NCBI GenBank assembly: GCA_016209085.1
Contig: JACQWV010000009.1
Coordinates: 1 to 40,871 of the forward strand
Source of the DNA: Elusimicrobiota bacterium
GTDB taxonomy: Bacteria; Elusimicrobiota; Elusimicrobia; Elusimicrobiales; UBA9959
Length of the DNA stretch: 40,871 nucleotides
Reading direction: 5' to 3'
The notes beneath the pieces are model-generated. The model was not told where the DNA came from. It did no database searches and worked only from the letters and a program-made list of their open reading frames with translations. Below, piece by piece: positions 2,128-33,426 of this stretch. The position numbers were made by a program, and so were the translations under genes. Position 1 is the stretch's first letter; each line of letters begins with the position of its first letter.

Positions 2128-3794
2128 TGAATGAGCTAAAAAATTTATACGAATGTCTGGTGAATTCTGCGTCAAAGGCGCCGAAAAAAACAGCCCTCAT
2201 ATTCCAGGGAAGTCGTCGGCATAGCCTCCGACACCTGTGGGTCGGGTGGCATAGCGCCCGACACTTGATGAGCCAGAGGCTCGTTGTTCCGCCGCAGTGC
2301 GGCTGTTCCGAGAAAATTTATTACCATGAACTTCTTTTTTTCACGGACAGGGCTGCGGACATGTTTTGGCAGATGGGAATAAGAAAAAGCGACAAAGCCG
2401 CCATTGTCCTTAGAAATTCCCCGGAATTCATAATTTCCTATCTGGCGCTTGCAAAATTAGGCGCGATAAGCGTGCCGGTAAATTTCATGATTTCAAAAGA
2501 GGACGAACTGGAATACATACTAAAAAACAGCGGGGCAAAAGGAGTACTAACCCAATGCGAATTTTTAAAAAACCTTAAACATCTCAGGACAAAAGTTGAA
2601 ACTCTTGAGTTTGTGTTGTGCGCGGACGACCCGCACGGGCATGATTTCTGGCATTATCTTAAACGCTCTCATTACCATGGAAAAGCTCAAACTCCGGAAC
2701 CGCGCGAAAATGACCCTGTTTCAATACTCTATACTTCCGGCACAACCGGCCATCCCAAGGGAGTGATTCTCACGCACGGGAATCTGATTTCAAACGCAAA
2801 TTCCTGCATTCAGGCGCTTTGTCCGGATGAAAACGAGGTTTTTCTGTGCCTCCTCCCCATGTTCCATACTTTTTCATGGACGGCCAGCGTCATGCTGCCG
2901 CTGATTCTGGGGGCAAAAATAGTGATAGCGCCGAACCTGACCCCTCCCAAGCCCTGGCTTAACGCAATGGGAATAGAGGGCGTTACGATATTCACGGCGA
3001 TTCCCCAGCTTCTTTCCGTCCTGGCAAAGGAAGCGAAGGGATTTAAAAAACTTTTTTTAAAATACTGGTGTTTCAGAAAACTTAAATTCTGCGTATCGGG
3101 AGCCGCTCCGTTAAATCCTTCAATCAAAAGGAATTTTGAAAAAGCGTTCGGCTTGCCCGTGCTGGAAGGCTACGGTCTCACCGAGACAAGCCCGGTAGTG
3201 AGCGTGAACCTGCCCGAAAAACAAAAAGACGGCTCCGTAGGCAAACCCGTTCCGGGCGTAAAAGTGAAAATCATTGACGAACACGGCAAACATCTGGAAC
3301 GCGGCGAAGAAGGGGAAATATGCGTCCACGGCGCCTCAATAACCTGCGGGTACCATGAGAATCCCGAAGCCACAAAAGAACTATTCACTCATGACGGATG
3401 GCTCAAGACCGGCGACATAGGCATTCTGGATAACGAGGGATTCCTTCATATACGAGACAGAAAAAAAGACATGGTAATAGTCAAGGGGCTTAAGGTCTTC
3501 CCCGCCCAGATAGAGCACGTGCTGGCGAACCATCCTAAAATCCATGAAACAGCTGTAATCGGAATCCCGGACGGAGAAGGCGGCGAAACCATGAAATGCT
3601 TCTGCGTGCCCAGAAAAGACGTGAGTCTTGAAAAATCCGAGGTGTTCAGGTTTATAAAAGAGCATCTTGACCCTTACAAAAGGCCGAGAGAAGTGGAAAT
3701 AGTTGAGTCTTTGCCGAAAAATTCAATGCAGAAAGTTTTAAAAAGAGCGCTTTTGAAACAAGAGCTTGAGAAAAAATTTAAAATAAAGGTATGA
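2127..3794 (+). CDS. AMP-dependent acyl-CoA synthetase (fatty-acid-CoA ligase family) carrying an in-frame repeat insertion
   Basis: Adenylate-forming enzyme that activates a carboxylic acid, probably a fatty acid, with ATP and CoA. Visible motifs in order: the P-loop-like SILYTSGTTGHPKG near residue 200, GYGLTETSPVVSV, the hinge and D-loop LKTGDIG and DRKKDMVIVKG, and a C-terminal catalytic lysine in NSMQKVLKR. About 520 residues would be usual; the extra length is an insert at residues 29-62 (nt 2212-2312). It splits the expected run TALIFQG...KIYYHELL and is encoded by a palindromic repeat shared with other genes here. Because the rest is intact, the gene is probably functional. It overlaps the next gene by four bases (ATGA). 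Substrate chain length is unknown. Confidence 0.9.
   Translation: MNELKNLYECLVNSASKAPKKTALIFQGSRRHSLRHLWVGWHSARHLMSQRLVVPPQCGCSEKIYYHELLFFTDRAADMFWQMGIRKSDKAAIVLRNSPEFIISYLALAKLGAISVPVNFMISKEDELEYILKNSGAKGVLTQCEFLKNLKHLRTKVETLEFVLCADDPHGHDFWHYLKRSHYHGKAQTPEPRENDPVSILYTSGTTGHPKGVILTHGNLISNANSCIQALCPDENEVFLCLLPMFHTFSWTASVMLPLILGAKIVIAPNLTPPKPWLNAMGIEGVTIFTAIPQLLSVLAKEAKGFKKLFLKYWCFRKLKFCVSGAAPLNPSIKRNFEKAFGLPVLEGYGLTETSPVVSVNLPEKQKDGSVGKPVPGVKVKIIDEHGKHLERGEEGEICVHGASITCGYHENPEATKELFTHDGWLKTGDIGILDNEGFLHIRDRKKDMVIVKGLKVFPAQIEHVLANHPKIHETAVIGIPDGEGGETMKCFCVPRKDVSLEKSEVFRFIKEHLDPYKRPREVEIVESLPKNSMQKVLKRALLKQELEKKFKIKV
2212..2312 (-). repeat. Intragenic palindromic element, copy A (101 nt, in acyl-CoA synthetase)
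   Basis: Written on the minus strand, this copy is identical base for base to copy C at 21918-22018. It holds four small hairpins with stems GCCGC/GCGGC, GAGCC/GGCTC, GTCGGG/CCCGAC and GTCGG/CCGAC. In the host gene the opposite strand is translated, giving a peptide containing VGWHSARHLMSQRLVV and no stop codon. The boundaries are set by the limits of identity with copy C. Confidence 0.9.
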
Positions 3795-16259: not shown

Positions 16260-16865
16260 ATGAAAAAAACAAAAAAATCGCGCATAAAAAAATCCGCAAG
16301 AAAACCCGTTAGGAAACCCTCTTCCAAAAAATTGAAAAACAAATCCGCCGGAACAGGGCGGCATTGCCCGCAATCGGTGCCGCGAGCGCTGCGAGCGGCC
16401 GGAACAGCCGCACTGCAGCCGGAACAACGAGCCTCCGGCTCATCAAGTGTCGGGCGCTATGCCGCCCGACCACAGGTGTCGAAGGCTATGCCGAAGACCA
16501 ATCAGACGGTCATATTGGGCAAACATGAAATCAAATCCCTGAGAAACGAACTCGTCAAACTCAGGGATTCTCTCGCAAAAAGCGTTGAAGACAAGCGGAA
16601 CATTGAGGTAGTTGAACCCGACATCGGCGACTCAATCGACCAGGCCTCCAAAAGTCTGGACAGGGAAATGTTTTTTGAATTATCCGACAATGAGCGGGTA
16701 ATGCTTGACGACGTTGAAGCCGCCCTGAGGAAGATTGACGGCGGCATGTACGGCGCCTGCGAGCAATGCCGCAAACCCATAAACAAGAAAAGGCTTAAAG
16801 CCCTTCCGTCGGCGAGATACTGTCTTGTATGCCAGAACACGTCGGAAAACAGAAGAACAGCATAA
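16260..16865 (+). CDS. DksA/TraR-type zinc-finger protein with in-frame repeat insertion
   Basis: Small regulatory protein of the DksA/TraR family, which usually binds in the RNA polymerase secondary channel. The C-terminal part (from about residue 85) has the coiled-coil helices, GDSIDQASKSLDRE, and the four-cysteine finger CEQC...CLVC near 164-188. The N-terminal 32 residues are very Lys/Arg-rich, as in many relatives. Residues 33-80 (nt 16357-16500) are repeat-derived (RASGSSSVGRYAARP), so the native protein would be about 150 residues. Ribosome-binding site AAAGGAGAC. The coiled-coil tip that DksA uses for polymerase inhibition is not clearly identifiable, so function as a true DksA is inferred only at family level. 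Confidence 0.85.
   Translation: MKKTKKSRIKKSARKPVRKPSSKKLKNKSAGTGRHCPQSVPRALRAAGTAALQPEQRASGSSSVGRYAARPQVSKAMPKTNQTVILGKHEIKSLRNELVKLRDSLAKSVEDKRNIEVVEPDIGDSIDQASKSLDREMFFELSDNERVMLDDVEAALRKIDGGMYGACEQCRKPINKKRLKALPSARYCLVCQNTSENRRTA
16357..16500 (+). repeat. Intragenic palindromic element, copy B (composite, in the DksA-like gene)
   Basis: Bases 16400-16500 align with copy C with several substitutions, one extra base (GCAGCCGG against GCGGCGG) and one missing base (GACCACAG against GACCCACAG). The two indels cancel, so the host frame is kept. The stem GTCGGGCG-CTATGC-CGCCCGAC is a perfect 8-bp hairpin here. An additional block from 16357, GGCGGCATTGCC followed by GCGAGCGCTGCGAGCGGCC, resembles the insert in the cca-family gene. 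Confidence 0.85.
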
Positions 16866-21541: not shown

Positions 21542-22675
21542 ATGGGGAAAAGAATAAGAAAATATTCGGTTAATTTCTTGTCATTCGTATCATTTGTAGT
21601 ATTGTTCGCTGCTATACTGCCGGCCCGTCTCTTTCCTGAAACGGTTTCATTTGCAATAAAACCGCCCAAAGACAAACCGAAGCTTGCGCAGCCTTTTAAA
21701 ATTGAACTGGAAGTTTCCTATCCAGGCGGCTTTTCAATTGAAGTTGACACTGCCGGCTTTGAAACAGAATCATTCGTGATAACCGATGCAAAAAGTTCAG
21801 GCAAAACCGCCGGCAAAGGCGGAATCACCGAAAAAATAATTCTGGAAGCGATTCCCTTTGACATAGGGGTTGCCACTTTCCCGTCCCTCACATGGAACCT
21901 GCATAAAACGGGCGAACCTCGGAACAGCCGCACTGCGGCGGAACAACGAGCCTCTGGCTCATCAAGTGTCGGGCGCTATGCCACCCGACCCACAGGTGTC
22001 GGAGGCTATGCCGACGACCAGGTAATCTCCCGGACCAAAAGCCCTTCATTCAATATTGAAATTGAACCGCTGTTCAAAGCCGGGGACGGACAGGAAGACA
22101 TAAGAGACGTCTACCCGCCGTTTAAATTTTTTTCCTGGCTTAATCTTGCGATAATTCTTCTGATATCGGCGGTTCTCGCGGCGCTCTATTTGATATACAG
22201 AAAAAAACAATCAGCCGCGCTGAAAGCCGCTGAACCGGTTGATACCAGACCGCCGGACGTAATAGCCCTTGACGAAATCCGGAAACTTCTGGCTTCAAAC
22301 CTGTGGCAGGAAGGAAAAATCAAGGATTTCTACATCAGCCTGTCCGACATATTCAGAACTTTCATCTATAAGAGCCTTGATATAAACGCTCCGTTAATGA
22401 CCACCTTTGACATGGTAAAGGAATTCAAACACACGGACATCAATATAAACACGATAATAAAAATAAGGGAATCCCTGGAATTATGCGACCTTGTAAAATT
22501 CGCAAAATTTATGCCGGGTGAAGAAAACAGAGATAAAGACGTGGAACTGATAGAAGCAAACATCGCGGCGATAAAAACCCATCTGGATTCTAAAAAAGCA
22601 AGCAATTTTCCTTTAACAAATACTGAAATCCCCCTGCATCCCCCTTTACAAAAGGGGGAAAAGAGGGGGATTTAA
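21542..22675 (+). CDS. BatD-like / DUF4381-like membrane protein with internal and C-terminal repeat-derived segments
   Basis: Signal peptide or anchor at about residues 10-32, an exported beta-rich domain resembling BatD (QPFKIELEVSYPGGF), one membrane helix near residues 186-206, and a cytoplasmic helical domain (IKDFYISLSDIFRTFIYKS) as in DUF4381-type proteins of Bat operons. Residues 126-159 are encoded by palindromic copy C (RASGSSSVGRYATRP). The last 17 residues (EIPLHPPLQKGEKRGI end) are encoded by another palindrome at 22626-22673. A GTG at 21506 is in frame, but the ATG at 21542 follows AAGGGA and avoids translating a spacer repeat. Function beyond the Bat complex is not known. Confidence 0.78.
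   Translation: MGKRIRKYSVNFLSFVSFVVLFAAILPARLFPETVSFAIKPPKDKPKLAQPFKIELEVSYPGGFSIEVDTAGFETESFVITDAKSSGKTAGKGGITEKIILEAIPFDIGVATFPSLTWNLHKTGEPRNSRTAAEQRASGSSSVGRYATRPTGVGGYADDQVISRTKSPSFNIEIEPLFKAGDGQEDIRDVYPPFKFFSWLNLAIILLISAVLAALYLIYRKKQSAALKAAEPVDTRPPDVIALDEIRKLLASNLWQEGKIKDFYISLSDIFRTFIYKSLDINAPLMTTFDMVKEFKHTDININTIIKIRESLELCDLVKFAKFMPGEENRDKDVELIEANIAAIKTHLDSKKASNFPLTNTEIPLHPPLQKGEKRGI
21918..22018 (+). repeat. Intragenic palindromic element, copy C (101 nt, in the BatD-like gene)
   Basis: Identical over all 101 bases to the reverse complement of copy A. It is read here in the sense opposite to copy A and yields an Arg/Ser/Gly-rich peptide. It sits in a loop of the exported domain just before the membrane helix. 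Confidence 0.9.
22626..22673. repeat. Palindromic AAATCCCCCT element forming the 3' end of the BatD-like gene
   Basis: Outer arms AAATCCCCCT and AGGGGGATTT, inner stem CCCCCTTT-ACA-AAAGGGGG. This resembles a dispersed repeat common in many bacteria. The host frame runs through it and stops with TAA at its right edge. Confidence 0.8.
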
Positions 22676-27369: not shown

Positions 27370-28119
27370 ATGAGCGCGATGATACTGAGCTCAGTACTTC
27401 TATTGCTTGGTGTTTTTATAAACGCCCGTCCGCTCGGCGCTGCTGAAAACCCGATTCTTAAAATAAACGAGGATTACAGAAACGCAAATTTTGAGCAGGC
27501 TCTGGCAGGTTATCTGCGGCTTCTTGAAACCGATCCTTATAATCCGTCTCTTCTTTATAACGCAGGCAACTGCCATTCCAAATTAGGTCATACCGGCCAG
27601 GCTGTCGCGTACTACCTGAGGGCGTTCAACCTGCTTCCGAGGAATTCAGACATAAGGCACAATCTGGAATACGTCATGAAACATTCGGGCCAGAGTTTCA
27701 GGCCGGAGGGAGCGCCTCCCGTGGTTTACTTTGTCTATTACTTTTTTTCATATCACGAACTCAAGGCGATTTCCATAATCCTGTTCTGGATTCTCTGCCT
27801 GTCAGGCGCTCTTTACGCCGTAAAACCCGGTTTAAGAGAAACTCTCAAAAGCTATCTGGCAGGCATCTCTATTCTGTTTGTCTTTCTCTACTTGTGGAGC
27901 GCCATGAGAACCACCTCGCCGTTTCACAACTCTGCGGTTATAATCAGGCCGGACGTTCCCATGCTCAGCGGCCCCGGGGAAAACTTCAAGGCATACGCCA
28001 ATCTGCCTGAAGGCAGCATAGTAAAAGTCATTGACTCAAACGATTTATATTATGAAATAGGAGTCGCCAAGGAAGGCATAAAAGGGTGGATAAAAAAGGA
28101 GCACGTAGAAAAAATATGA
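27370..28119 (+). CDS. batE: BatE: TPR and SH3-like membrane protein
   Basis: Signal peptide, two to three TPR units (ANFEQALAGYLRLLETDPYN, SLLYNAGNCHSKLGHTGQA), two membrane helices (about 138-150 and 160-176) and a C-terminal bacterial SH3 domain of about 60 residues (PMLSGPGENFKAYANLPEGS then WIKKEHVEKI). This is the BatE arrangement and ends the operon's Bat part. SH3 domains of this kind often bind peptidoglycan or peptides. The stop overlaps the rpiB ATG (ATGA). Confidence 0.87.
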   Translation: MSAMILSSVLLLLGVFINARPLGAAENPILKINEDYRNANFEQALAGYLRLLETDPYNPSLLYNAGNCHSKLGHTGQAVAYYLRAFNLLPRNSDIRHNLEYVMKHSGQSFRPEGAPPVVYFVYYFFSYHELKAISIILFWILCLSGALYAVKPGLRETLKSYLAGISILFVFLYLWSAMRTTSPFHNSAVIIRPDVPMLSGPGENFKAYANLPEGSIVKVIDSNDLYYEIGVAKEGIKGWIKKEHVEKI

Positions 28120-28580
28120 AAATATCAATGGCAAGCGATCATACCGGTTTTGAACTGAAATCGTTTCTCTCCTGGAAACTGAAAGCCCTCGGCCATAAAG
28201 TCATTGACCTGGGAACGGATTCCGGCAGGAAACCGTCCGATTACCCGGATTACGCCAAAAAAACCGCTCTCGGAATTCTGGCTGAAAAAGCCGAACGGGG
28301 AATTCTGATATGCGGCAGCGGGGTCGGGGCCTGCATTGCCGCCAATAAATTCCCCGGCATAAGAGCGGGGGTATGCCACGACACCTACTCCGCAAAACAG
28401 GCGGTTGAGCATGACGACCTCAACGTGCTCTGCTTAGGCGCAAGGGTGGTCGGAACTCATCTGGCGTGGGAAATCACGGAAACGTTTGTCAACGCGGAAT
28501 TTTCAAAGGAAGAGAGGCACGTGAAACGCCTTAAAAAAATAAAATCTTTTGAAACCAAGAATTGGGGAATAGGAGTTTAA
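28116..28580 (+). CDS. rpiB: Ribose-5-phosphate isomerase B
   Basis: Interconverts ribose 5-phosphate and ribulose 5-phosphate in the pentose phosphate pathway. MASDHTGFELK at the N terminus is the substrate-binding motif, ILICGSGVGACIAANKF holds the catalytic Cys, and CHDTYSAKQAVEHDDLNVLCLG follows in the usual order. A GTG at 28086 is in frame but the ATG at 28116 starts exactly at the conserved N terminus and follows AAAGGAG. Length 154 is normal. It shares an operon with tal-pgi. Confidence 0.95.
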   Translation: MKISMASDHTGFELKSFLSWKLKALGHKVIDLGTDSGRKPSDYPDYAKKTALGILAEKAERGILICGSGVGACIAANKFPGIRAGVCHDTYSAKQAVEHDDLNVLCLGARVVGTHLAWEITETFVNAEFSKEERHVKRLKKIKSFETKNWGIGV

Positions 28581-28581
28581 A

Positions 28582-31500
28582 ATGAACATTTTAACCGAAC
28601 TTTTGCAAATCAACCAGAGTCTGTGGCTGGACGACATAAACAGGGAATGGCTGTCAGGCAATGAAGTTTCTTCAATGATAAAAGACCTCGGAATAAAAGG
28701 AATGACTTCCAACCCTTCCATTTTTGAAAAAGCCATCACCGGAACCGGCATTTATGACAAAGCGATAGAAGAATCATGGGCAGCCGGGTTGAAGCCTGAA
28801 GAAATATACGGGAAACTCATGATTGAAGACATACGAGCCGCCGCCGACGCATTTATGGAAATTTATAAGGCATCGTCGGGATTTGACGGGTACGTAAGCA
28901 TAGAAGTATCCCCTCGTCTGGCGCGCGATTGGGAAAAAACGGTTTCAGAGGCGGAAAGAATCTTTGCGGAAATATCAAGGCCCAACGTAATGATAAAAGT
29001 CCCTGCCACAAAAGAAGGCGTAAAAGCCGCAAACATCCTCCTTAAAAAAGGCATAAACGTAAACGCAACGCTCATTTTCTCCCCTGACAGGTACGAGGAA
29101 ACAGCCCGGGCGTATCTGGACGCTCTCATGTACAGGGATTCAAAAGGGCTTCCCTTAGACCTGATAGCCTCGGTAGCAAGCTTCTTTGTAAGCAGAATAG
29201 ACACTGAGATTGACCGGCAGATTGACGAAGGACACCCGGACATCAGGGAACTGAAAGGCAAAACAGCGATAGCCAATTCCATAACCGCATACGACATATA
29301 CCGCTCAATATTCTCTTCAAAGGAATTCCTTGACATGCGTAAAAAAGGCGCGAAAAAACAGAGGATTTTATGGGCGTCAACAAGCGCGAAAAACCCGGCT
29401 TACAAGGAAACCCTCTACGTTGACGAGCTTGCCCTGCCTGACTCGGTCGACACCGCTCCCAGAGCCACGATTGAAGCGTTTCTCAAATCAGGCTCGGTCA
29501 ACAAGTGCAACATGGAAATCAGAATAGCCGAAGCAAAGGCTCTCCTCAGAAAAATCGGGGAAGCGGGCATTGATTTTGAAGGAGCGCTTGTGGGTCTTGA
29601 AAGGGACGGGGTGAAGAAATTCATTGACGCGCACGAGTCAATAATAAAACACCTGGAATCCAAGATAAACGGTCTCATGCCGCGCAATTCCTGCGCCGCC
29701 AGACTTGCCGAAATCAACTTTGCGGACAGGCTCCGGAAAAAAGACGTTTCCCTATGGAAGGACGAGGCGGAACACGCGAAAATAATATCAAACTCGTTAG
29801 GCTGGCTTGAAGTTCCTTTCAGAATGAAAGACTCCATTGGTGAAATAGAAAATTTTGTCTCAGGGATATTGAAGGAAAAATTCACGGACGCCGTTCTTCT
29901 CGGAATGGGGGGGTCAAGCCTTGCGCCCGAAGTCATAAGAACCCTTTTCCAAAAAGATAAATACCCCAAACTCCGGGCGCTGGACACAACTGACCCTGCC
30001 TGGATATTGAAAACAGCGGGTTCAATAAACGTAAAAAAGACTCTTTTTATATTTTCCAGCAAATCAGGAAGCACCATAGAACCCAACAGCCAGTTTAAAT
30101 ATTTCCGGCGCCTTCTTGAAAAAGCCGGCATAAAAAATCCCGGAAGGCATTTTATAGCGATTACCGACAAAGGCACAGGTCTTGAAAAACTCGCGGCAGA
30201 GCTGAAGTTCAGAAAAACCTTTGTGAATCCTTCGGACATAGGCGGCAGGTTCTCGGCTCTCTCTTATTTCGGCATGGTTCCGGCTGCTTTATGCGGGGCG
30301 GATGTCCGCATCCTGATTGACCGGGGAATCAGAATGGCCAAAGAAAATTCCGGTCTTCAGTTAGGCGCGTTCATGGCAGACGCGTATTTTAAAGGAAAGG
30401 ATAAATTAACTCTTGTCATGCCGGAGAAAATGGAGGTTTTCGGCCTATGGATTGAACAACTGGTGGCGGAAAGCACGGGCAAGGAGGGGAAGGGAATCGT
30501 TCCTGTGTGCATGGAGGAACTTTCAGACCCGGCCGGATACCAGGATGACAGGGCGTTCGTATGGCTCCGCCTTGCCGGCATAAACGACAAGAAAACAGAG
30601 TCCCGGATTTCTGCTTTAAAAAACGCGGGCCATCCGGCGCATGAAATAAGGCTTAACGACATTTATGACATCGGCGCCGAGTTCTTCAGATGGGAGACTG
30701 CTACGGCCGCTGCCGGAGCTCTCATGCGCATAAATCCTTTTGACCAGCCGGACGTGAACCAGGCAAAAGCCCTTGCGCTGAAGGTCCTTGAAAAAACCCT
30801 GGATAAATCTACCGCGGCAAAACCGGATTTTTCCTCTGACAGAATTTCAATTTATCTTTCCCAGAGACTGAAAAAAGATGTCAATCCGCCTGAGAAGGAG
30901 GGATCTGCCCCATGCGGCGTTGACTCAATTCTGAACGTGTTTTTTTCATCCCTGAACAGGAGAGAATACATGGGAATACTCGCTTACCTGCCGTATGAAA
31001 CTGCGATTGACAAAGCCCTCTCAAGACTCAGAAAAACCGTTGGGCTCAAAACTCATTCAACCGTTATCGCGGCTTACGGCCCCAGATACCTTCACTCTTC
31101 GGGACAGCTCCATAAAGGAGGCCCTGACAACGGCCTGTTCCTCATATTGACAAACAGGCCCAAAAAGGATATTATAATACCAGGGGAAAAATATACTTTT
31201 GGCGAATTAGAATCTTCCCAGGCGCTCGGAGACTTTGCGGCTCTTGAGGCTAAAAACAGAAGAGTCATTCTGGCAGAACTGAAACAACCGCTTATGAAAT
31301 CTCTGGATTATTTAATCAAAAAGATATCCGACAGCGCCTCAAAAAGCAGTTCCATTAATCCGCCTGCTTCCCGACGTTCGTCGGGGCGGACAGGCATGGA
31401 GGAAAACAAAATGCAGAAATTGGCGACAAAAACATCGGCTGCCAAGACGCCGAAAAACAGACTTACGGACACCGATGACTGGTGTGCCATAGACTATCCG

Positions 31501-31737
31501 GCCAATCTGGAAACAATCACTTCCAGATATTACGGCATAAGAATAGGCGCTTCAGAATGCTGCGGGATGGAAGTTTCAATAGACGATCGTCCGTGGCAGT
31601 CCTGCAGGCATGCCTCAGGCTACTGGTGGTATGACTGGCACAACATCACGCCGGGAATGCACCAGATTGTGGCGAGGATGCGCAAGCAAAACGGGGAATA
31701 TGTAATCTCCAAGCGCAGACGCTGCAAAGTATCGTAA
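28582..31737 (+). CDS. tal-pgi: Bifunctional transaldolase / glucose-6-phosphate isomerase fused to a small C-terminal domain
   Basis: Residues 1 to about 365 are transaldolase (GMTSNPSIFEKAI, Schiff-base Lys139 in VMIKVPAT). About 380-920 are glucose-6-phosphate isomerase (GMGGSSLAPEV near 442, SSKSGSTIEPNS, ESTGKEGKG). Both act in sugar-phosphate metabolism and the fusion is known in several bacteria. Residues 927-938 come from a palindromic repeat. The last 108 residues (from Met944) look like an independent gene: its ATG at 31411 has its own GGAGG at 31398, and the domain reads TDDWCAIDYPAN, YYGIRIGASECCG, SGYWWYDWHNITPGMH. It is a small beta-rich domain that I do not recognise functionally. 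It may be made both as part of the fusion and separately. Confidence 0.9.
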   Translation: MNILTELLQINQSLWLDDINREWLSGNEVSSMIKDLGIKGMTSNPSIFEKAITGTGIYDKAIEESWAAGLKPEEIYGKLMIEDIRAAADAFMEIYKASSGFDGYVSIEVSPRLARDWEKTVSEAERIFAEISRPNVMIKVPATKEGVKAANILLKKGINVNATLIFSPDRYEETARAYLDALMYRDSKGLPLDLIASVASFFVSRIDTEIDRQIDEGHPDIRELKGKTAIANSITAYDIYRSIFSSKEFLDMRKKGAKKQRILWASTSAKNPAYKETLYVDELALPDSVDTAPRATIEAFLKSGSVNKCNMEIRIAEAKALLRKIGEAGIDFEGALVGLERDGVKKFIDAHESIIKHLESKINGLMPRNSCAARLAEINFADRLRKKDVSLWKDEAEHAKIISNSLGWLEVPFRMKDSIGEIENFVSGILKEKFTDAVLLGMGGSSLAPEVIRTLFQKDKYPKLRALDTTDPAWILKTAGSINVKKTLFIFSSKSGSTIEPNSQFKYFRRLLEKAGIKNPGRHFIAITDKGTGLEKLAAELKFRKTFVNPSDIGGRFSALSYFGMVPAALCGADVRILIDRGIRMAKENSGLQLGAFMADAYFKGKDKLTLVMPEKMEVFGLWIEQLVAESTGKEGKGIVPVCMEELSDPAGYQDDRAFVWLRLAGINDKKTESRISALKNAGHPAHEIRLNDIYDIGAEFFRWETATAAAGALMRINPFDQPDVNQAKALALKVLEKTLDKSTAAKPDFSSDRISIYLSQRLKKDVNPPEKEGSAPCGVDSILNVFFSSLNRREYMGILAYLPYETAIDKALSRLRKTVGLKTHSTVIAAYGPRYLHSSGQLHKGGPDNGLFLILTNRPKKDIIIPGEKYTFGELESSQALGDFAALEAKNRRVILAELKQPLMKSLDYLIKKISDSASKSSSINPPASRRSSGRTGMEENKMQKLATKTSAAKTPKNRLTDTDDWCAIDYPANLETITSRYYGIRIGASECCGMEVSIDDRPWQSCRHASGYWWYDWHNITPGMHQIVARMRKQNGEYVISKRRRCKVS
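31362..31395. repeat. Palindromic repeat bridging tal-pgi and the C-terminal domain
   Basis: GCCTGCTTCCCGAC-GTTC-GTCGGGGCGGACAGGC, with core stem CCCGAC-GTTC-GTCGGG and outer GCCTG/CAGGC arms. It is open in the tal-pgi frame and lies where a stop codon and spacer would be expected. Confidence 0.7.
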
Positions 31738-31812: not shown

Positions 31813-33426
31813 ATGTCCAGGAAAAACAAAAAAACAGCTGCCAAATCCGGATTCTTCGCTTTCAGCCTGACTGCTTTCCTTCTCCTGCTGTTTTTCCTCT
31901 TTATCCCCAAAGAAATAAACCTCTCCAACTCGGACATAGGCAGGCACCTGAAAAACGGCGAGATGACCGTTTCGGAACGGCTCATCCCCAAAACCAATTT
32001 TTATTCCTACACCAACCCGGATTTTCCTTTTTACAACCACCACTGGCTCAGCGGCGTGGTTTTCTGGACCATTCACAGGGTTTCCGGATTTGAAGGGCTT
32101 TCCGTTTTTTTCATCGTAATTTCTCTCGTCACTTTTTACGTTTTCCTGTCCCTCGGCATGAAATATTCAAACCATGGGCTCACGGCTTTGATTGCTCTGG
32201 CGGCAATGCCTGTAATAATCAACCGGCACGAAATCAGGCCCGAAATATTCAGCTATTTCTTCTGCGCCGCGTATTTATGGCTTTTTTACAATTTCGACCG
32301 GAACAACGAGCCTCCGGCTCATCAAGTGTCGGGCGCTATGCCGCCCGACCGGAACCGCGTTTCGGGTAAAATCCTGTACATCATTCCTTTGCTCCAGATT
32401 GTCTGGGTCAACCTCCACATCTATTTCATAATGGGTATATTCATCGGCTCCGCGTTCTGGCTTGAAGCCCTCATAAACAAAAACCTCAGGCAATCGGCCG
32501 GTTTCAGAATCCTGACGCTCGTATTGATTTCGTCGGTTCTCGCTTCAATCATCAACCCTTACTGGCTACGCGGGCTGTTGTTCCCTTTTAAAATCTTTGA
32601 GAATTACGGATACCTTGTCTTTGAAAACCAGTCAGTCAGGTTCATAGAAAGGATTTTCAAATATCCTCCTGCGCTTAATTTCAAAATAGTATTCTATACT
32701 CTTGCGGCAAGCTGGATATTCCGGATTTACAAATCAATAAAGGAAAAAGAGAGATTTCCGACCGCTTTTTTCATCATAAGCGCGGCGTTCTCCGCTATGG
32801 CCTGGCTTGCAATCAGGAACTTTGCTCTTTTCGGCTATTTTGCCCTTGCAATTTCAGCTTTGAATTTTAAAGATATTTTACCGGGCAGGCTTTTAAAATG
32901 GCAGTATCTTTATGTTCCGGCAGTTCTCATTCTCACGCTCTTTGCGTTTCAAAAGACGAATCCTCAGATGAAAAGCAAAGGCGCAGACATAACTGGCCTT
33001 GTTCCCGGCAATGAAGCGGCGGCGCAATTTTTCATCCAAAACAGGCTGAAAGGCCCTGTTTTCAACAACTACGACATAGGAAGTTATCTGATATATCACC
33101 TGTATCCGCTGGAAAAAGTCTTTGTGGACAACAGGCCCGAAGCCTATCCCTCTGCTTTTTTCAAAGAAGTCTACGTGCCCATGCAGGAAAAAGAAGAAGT
33201 ATGGCTCAGAGAAAGCGCGAAATACGGAATAAATGCCATCTTTTTTTACAGGCACGACGTAACCCCGCACGGACAGGACTTCCTGATTAAAAGGGTCTCC
33301 GACTCGCAATGGGCGCCTGTCTTTGTTGACGCAAACAACATAATCTTTTTGAAAAGGATCAAAGAAAACAGCGGAATAATCAAAAAATTTGAACTGCCGA
33401 AAGAAATGTTTCAGGTGGTAAGATGA
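31813..33426 (+). CDS. Polytopic membrane protein, GT-C glycosyltransferase-like
   Basis: About ten membrane helices over 440 residues, then a soluble tail of about 110 residues. After the first helix comes a loop with SDIGRHLKNGEM, then LIPKTNFYSYTNPDFPFYNHHWL, the pattern DxxxHLxxGxxI...P...FSxT...H/W-WL of a family of uncharacterised GT-C-like proteins, which have an acidic residue in this position for lipid-linked sugar transfer. The soluble tail has PVFNNYDIGSYLIYHLYP and VFVDNRPEAYP. Residues 162-181 are a repeat-derived insertion (copy D) between two helices. It overlaps the peptidase gene by four bases. Enzyme activity is an inference. Confidence 0.72.
   Translation: MSRKNKKTAAKSGFFAFSLTAFLLLLFFLFIPKEINLSNSDIGRHLKNGEMTVSERLIPKTNFYSYTNPDFPFYNHHWLSGVVFWTIHRVSGFEGLSVFFIVISLVTFYVFLSLGMKYSNHGLTALIALAAMPVIINRHEIRPEIFSYFFCAAYLWLFYNFDRNNEPPAHQVSGAMPPDRNRVSGKILYIIPLLQIVWVNLHIYFIMGIFIGSAFWLEALINKNLRQSAGFRILTLVLISSVLASIINPYWLRGLLFPFKIFENYGYLVFENQSVRFIERIFKYPPALNFKIVFYTLAASWIFRIYKSIKEKERFPTAFFIISAAFSAMAWLAIRNFALFGYFALAISALNFKDILPGRLLKWQYLYVPAVLILTLFAFQKTNPQMKSKGADITGLVPGNEAAAQFFIQNRLKGPVFNNYDIGSYLIYHLYPLEKVFVDNRPEAYPSAFFKEVYVPMQEKEEVWLRESAKYGINAIFFYRHDVTPHGQDFLIKRVSDSQWAPVFVDANNIIFLKRIKENSGIIKKFELPKEMFQVVR
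32295..32355 (+). repeat. Intragenic palindromic element, copy D (short form, in the GT-C-like gene)
   Basis: Only the central part of the element is present, including GAGCC-TCC-GGCTC and the perfect GTCGGGCG-CTATGC-CGCCCGAC hairpin. It is flanked by a direct repeat CGACCGGAAC (32295-32304 and 32346-32355), spaced 51 bases, a multiple of three. The frame differs from copies B and C, and the peptide reads NNEPPAHQVSGAMPPD. Confidence 0.83.

Follow-up and report, generated by a model that had tools for sequence, protein, structure and literature searches.

A small Ig-like protein gene predicted to lie nested, in frame, at the 3′ end of a fused transaldolase-phosphoglucose isomerase gene in Elusimicrobiota

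We analyzed a 40,871-nt stretch of DNA (the window), located on contig C2 of a draft Elusimicrobiota assembly of 2.35 Mb in 140 contigs. On its forward strand, a fused gene at positions 28582 to 31737 stays open for 1051 codons and encodes a transaldolase part (Tal; aa 14 to 356), a phosphoglucose isomerase part (Pgi; up to about aa 917), a linker (aa 920 to 964), and an Ig-like C-terminal domain. It is preceded on the same strand by rpiB (28086 to 28580), which encodes ribose-5-phosphate isomerase B (PF02502, 1.7e-52) and which also marks the locus in relatives that lack tal-pgi and retain the domain. Residues 1 to 917 of the fused protein match the bifunctional transaldolase/phosphoglucose isomerase model PRK09533 (NF007080) over the entire model (positions 2 to 946 of 949; 947.8 bits against a curated cut-off of 712), whereas the model stops before the linker and has no Ig-like C-terminal domain. 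In AlphaFold2 predictions for 24 fused proteins the linker is disordered between well-predicted domains (pLDDT 25 to 35 over its middle). Met944, which is invariant in an alignment of 24 fused proteins, falls inside the linker, as do the residues encoded by a palindrome.

A first-pass annotation of this DNA had described a 34-nt palindrome without a stop codon between Pgi and the C-terminal 108 residues and, for the downstream domain, a GGAGG and an ATG of its own; both descriptions hold. The palindrome (31362 to 31395) is imperfect, with core arms CCCGACG/CGTCGGG that pair perfectly over 7 bp (31370 to 31385) and weaker outer arms, and its mismatches let it escape the default repeat finder. 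It is translated as ...PASRRSSGRTG... without interruption. Immediately downstream on the forward strand, the Shine-Dalgarno (SD) sequence GGAGG (31398 to 31402) is followed, after 8 nt, by the ATG at 31411 to 31413 (Met944), and a second in-frame ATG at 31396 overlaps the SD site. GGAGG fits the 3′ end of the source genome's own 16S rRNA, GGCTGGATCACCTCCTT. The predicted nested coding sequence, from 31411 to 31737 on the forward strand with its stop included, would give a free protein of 108 aa, a prediction that draws on homologues, AlphaFold2, Foldseek, and pI. Standard annotation would report a single 1051-aa enzyme at this locus and overlook the second product.

We searched for the domain in 120 relatives, finding it in 68 of 121 genomes (the window's own included), and scanned stretches from 60 relatives with Tal, Pgi, and the domain. 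Pgi and the domain shared one open frame in 35 of the 60, mostly together with Tal. With the window, the fused set comprises 36 genes from 13 genera, 11 in the same family and two in a sister family, and because it is common to all of these the Pgi-domain fusion is old. A sequencing or assembly error that conceals a stop codon, which the first-pass annotation had suggested checking for, might be suspected in a draft assembly of 140 contigs, but the same open frame recurs in 35 other assemblies, and a missed stop is very unlikely, to the point of being negligible. In a Pgi tree, the window's gene lies among the fused ones. The domain is a separate gene directly behind pgi in one genus of the sister family (g14), whose Pgi sequences form one clade adjoining two fused members of that family, so that fission may have secondarily produced the split state there. 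This midpoint-rooted tree also allows for several fusions, and the start would have been kept either way; which way fusion went, and how often, is what we infer. At one locus (L056, genome G031) Tal is joined to a Pgi reduced to its C-terminal third, apparently through an in-frame deletion, and is followed by the domain with its start kept.

The first-pass annotation had further supposed that insertion of the repeat created the fusion, in which case the palindrome would have removed a stop codon in the window's lineage. The palindrome does lie exactly in the linker and carries no stop, and its core, CCCGACGNNCGTCGGG, has 3 copies in the source genome and none in the 60 relatives searched. Relatives with the same fusion and no palindrome, which that annotation itself had named as grounds against its proposal, number 35, however, and the window's gene is placed among theirs in the Pgi tree; we therefore reject this origin of the fusion as highly improbable. 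Within the 60 nt that precede the domain ATG, none of these 35 genes has a perfect inverted repeat with 7-bp arms, and the window does. The pattern CCCGAC-N(2-22)-GTCGGG has 25 matches in the source genome, compared to 3 for a reversed control, and thus exceeds chance. With up to 3 mismatches allowed, the full-length 34-mer has a single match, and we rejected it as an exact genome-wide repeat; dispersal is limited to the core arms. By one landmark, which could also be located in 23 other genes, the window's linker measures 41 residues against 30 to 35 (median, 33) in those genes, an excess over the usual length of about 8 residues. Since the core is missing from the 60 relatives, its arms are dispersed 25 times here, and the linker is longer, the best reading of the palindrome is that one of the small hairpin elements of this genome was inserted late into a linker that tolerates such additions, the relatives compared being all from other genera. 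RNA of positions 31350 to 31420 is predicted to fold to −25.6 kcal/mol, compared to −16.9 ± 2.9 for shuffled sequences (z = −2.97; 1 of 200 shuffles as good). The case shows that a palindrome may stand out at the boundary between domains without having given rise to a fusion.

The internal SD site with its in-frame ATG at the domain start was found in all 36 fused genes and in all 13 genera. Across these genes, the SD:anti-SD energy at the domain ATG averaged −9.8 kcal/mol; the remaining in-frame ATGs of these genes, 586 in number, gave −3.3 ± 2.8. The comparison is slightly biased in favor of the domain ATG, which was picked for having the top score among the ATGs that lie between Pgi and the domain. 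In a given gene, usually no more than one further in-frame ATG equaled it, as would be the case were that one the gene's own start. Of 23 relatives whose main start could be read, 17 had a stronger SD at the internal start than at the main one, as did the window (−9.3 versus −6.8). Predicted RNA openness gave no clear sign that the internal site is more accessible than other sites of the same gene (0.59 versus 0.42 in the window; 0.14 versus 0.46 in G007). When one gene per genus was compared over the 42 nt before the ATG, little information lay outside the SD positions and a purine-rich stretch after them: G was present at −12, −10, and −9 in 12 of 13 genera each, the ATG was invariant, and the remainder of the linker diverged.

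Such conservation could be expected if only the fused protein were made and the GAGGAG/Met segment encoded a conserved linker peptide motif, such as one for cleavage or processing by a protease, with its SD likeness a by-product. An EESEM-like peptide is indeed common within the largest genus, a disordered linker could be cleaved, and an EE(S/R)EM peptide could itself be selected in part of the family. The codons speak against this reading, however. GAG serves as the site's first Glu codon in 33 of 33 genes, where the remainder of each gene would predict 12.9 (log10 P = −14.8, a value overstated because relatedness is ignored), and three genes (G008, G093, and G095) spell the SD with other codons that yield the peptides GGWEM, GGGRM, and VRETM. 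The same nucleotides also persist where tal-pgi is gone. From these three observations, conservation of the internal site appears to act at the nucleotide level, and a fused protein as the only product, with the site as a peptide motif, is rather unlikely.

The domain stands alone in 13 relatives (genus g4), in two genomes of a further genus (g12), and, near a contig end, in G011, mostly directly behind rpiB as in the gene order of the window. A close Pgi of the window type was sought in these domain-alone relatives and none was found, the only hits being to a different Pgi of ∼550 aa at 24 to 26% identity at most; in three of them (G003, G050, and G032), tal still precedes the domain. Most of the g4 free copies have the N terminus MLKLAVKK and GGAGGAAAGCGAA-ATG or a near variant, as in the fused genes. 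GGAGGAAAGCGAA is the common form of the site at the free copies, and because it lies there outside any tal-pgi frame, the simplest reading is that these nucleotides are selected as a ribosome-binding site. A different role, in which an SD located at the domain boundary slows elongating ribosomes so that Pgi folds before the C-terminal domain and no internal start is used, would leave unexplained both the invariant ATG at start-like spacing and the matching N terminus of the free-standing copies; we regard it as distinctly improbable. That the domain persists after the enzyme is lost speaks for an importance of the free protein in its own right.

Of 341 genomes in the phylum, 214 carried the domain in a profile search, as did 83 of 100 genera. 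Other classes, Endomicrobia among them, have it as a free ORF that in most instances shows a clear SD and a tail rich in lysine and alanine. The proposal of the first-pass annotation that the domain was once a separate small gene is supported by its occurrence as a free gene in other Elusimicrobiota families, a gene of this kind being its apparent ancestor. In several Endomicrobia (six loci), the free domain gene is part of a conserved row of ORFs ahead of a long gene; at L219, the only locus at which families were assigned, the row reads AIRS-like, epimerase, aminotransferase, GNAT, domain, and SMC, the long gene being smc. Additional, more distant copies of the domain were seen in G022, G033, G034, G041, G056, and others.

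The 108-residue domain is predicted to consist of a disordered basic tail followed by a nine-strand beta sandwich (AlphaFold2; pLDDT, 84.9). Foldseek places this predicted structure among Ig/FnIII-like modules (best E values from 3.5e-05 to about 1e-3; TMq mostly 0.63 to 0.69), including the B1 domain of CelAly (9kvu), the FnIII-like modules of CbhA (3pdg), and sulfite oxidase, and an Ig/FnIII-like fold is thus likely on the model. Unlike those domains, with which it shares 12 to 19% identity, it belongs to no Pfam or NCBIfam family and has a basic tail and a GYWWYDW motif. The sole Pfam match to the domain, to ribosomal L34 at the basic end, fell below threshold, an NCBIfam search returned no family, and a PDB sequence search returned only chance antibody hits; in the open-access literature, we found no description of the domain or of the fusion in Elusimicrobia. 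Residues W62, R66, G70, W72, W73, D75, and W76 are invariant, and the free product has a pI of 9.2 (median across internal products, 9.7). Our best guess is that the free protein is a binding module, with the basic tail on a polyanion or the conserved GYWWYDW patch on a ligand; that the domain binds a polyanion or a glycan is a guess.

These observations suggest that the fused gene contains a nested gene, and we consider it quite likely that the locus makes both the Tal-Pgi-domain protein and the free domain, an ancestral free gene having been fused behind pgi with its start kept. In this scheme, the C-terminal domain would descend from a free-standing Elusimicrobiota gene for a lysine-rich tail and an Ig-like domain, which in an ancestor of the order would have come directly behind pgi. 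Loss of the stop between the two would have produced Pgi-domain and Tal-Pgi-domain proteins, with the ribosome-binding site and start codon of the domain retained within the fused frame, and the palindrome would have arrived later, in this lineage only, in the disordered linker just upstream, without being the cause of the fusion. Initiation at the tal start would then yield the three-domain protein and initiation at 31411 the free 108-residue protein, the latter probably in amounts at least comparable to those of the fused protein because the main start usually has the weaker site. Use of the internal site and these relative amounts we infer from sequence. Dual production, which the first-pass annotation had thought possible, appears likely since the internal SD and ATG are conserved at the nucleotide level across all fused genes, and one gene very probably yields both the fused enzyme and, in free form, a small Ig-like protein. 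More broadly, it seems probable that a small protein of most Elusimicrobiota genera has, in one order, become nested in an enzyme of central metabolism and is made there both free and enzyme bound, with selection keeping the free form, since the domain and its start survive the loss of tal-pgi.

Cases are already known in which an internal in-frame start gives rise to a separate C-terminal protein, as for Cas11b from cas8b, where use of the start was shown by tagging, mutation, and mass spectrometry (PMC11899642). As with cas11 nested in type I-B cas8, the 3′ part of a larger gene has its own internal in-frame start for a separate small protein, here predicted with strong support from sequence comparison; unlike in cas11/cas8, to whose products the present proteins are unrelated, the domain is also a free gene in relatives, some of them without the upstream enzyme. 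The embedded endolysin in lysA of mycobacteriophage Ms6 (PMC3111421) similarly is a second gene wholly in frame inside a longer one, whereas the Ms6 proteins serve phage lysis and are unrelated. What is new here is the protein family, together with a natural set of fused, split, and enzyme-free relatives. Sharing the same start, these relatives are natural controls for the question of whether the fused gene must still supply the free ancestor, and the locus draws attention to an uncharacterized basic Ig-like protein found across the phylum.

The palindrome resembles REP elements and Rickettsia palindromic elements, which are short dispersed palindromes, some of them within genes (GTAG and CGTC REPs, PMC3733652), in that its core arms are dispersed above chance. 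In contrast to REPs, CGTC lies here on the loop side with no unpaired end tag, and no GTAG or CGTC end tag common to the copies was seen when their flanks were read by eye; we do not class the palindrome as a REP. The source genome has nine matches to Y1_Tnp (RAYT-type) transposases, spread over nine contigs, from which its many small palindromes may have arisen. A second dispersed palindromic repeat has four copies in the window (2241 to 2262, 16449 to 16470, 21968 to 21989, and 32328 to 32349), each with the core GTCGGGCGCTATGCCRCCCGAC inside a longer repeat; its arm pattern has 24 matches genome-wide, compared to 5 for the control, and the copy at 32328 falls within the ORF at 31813 to 33426.
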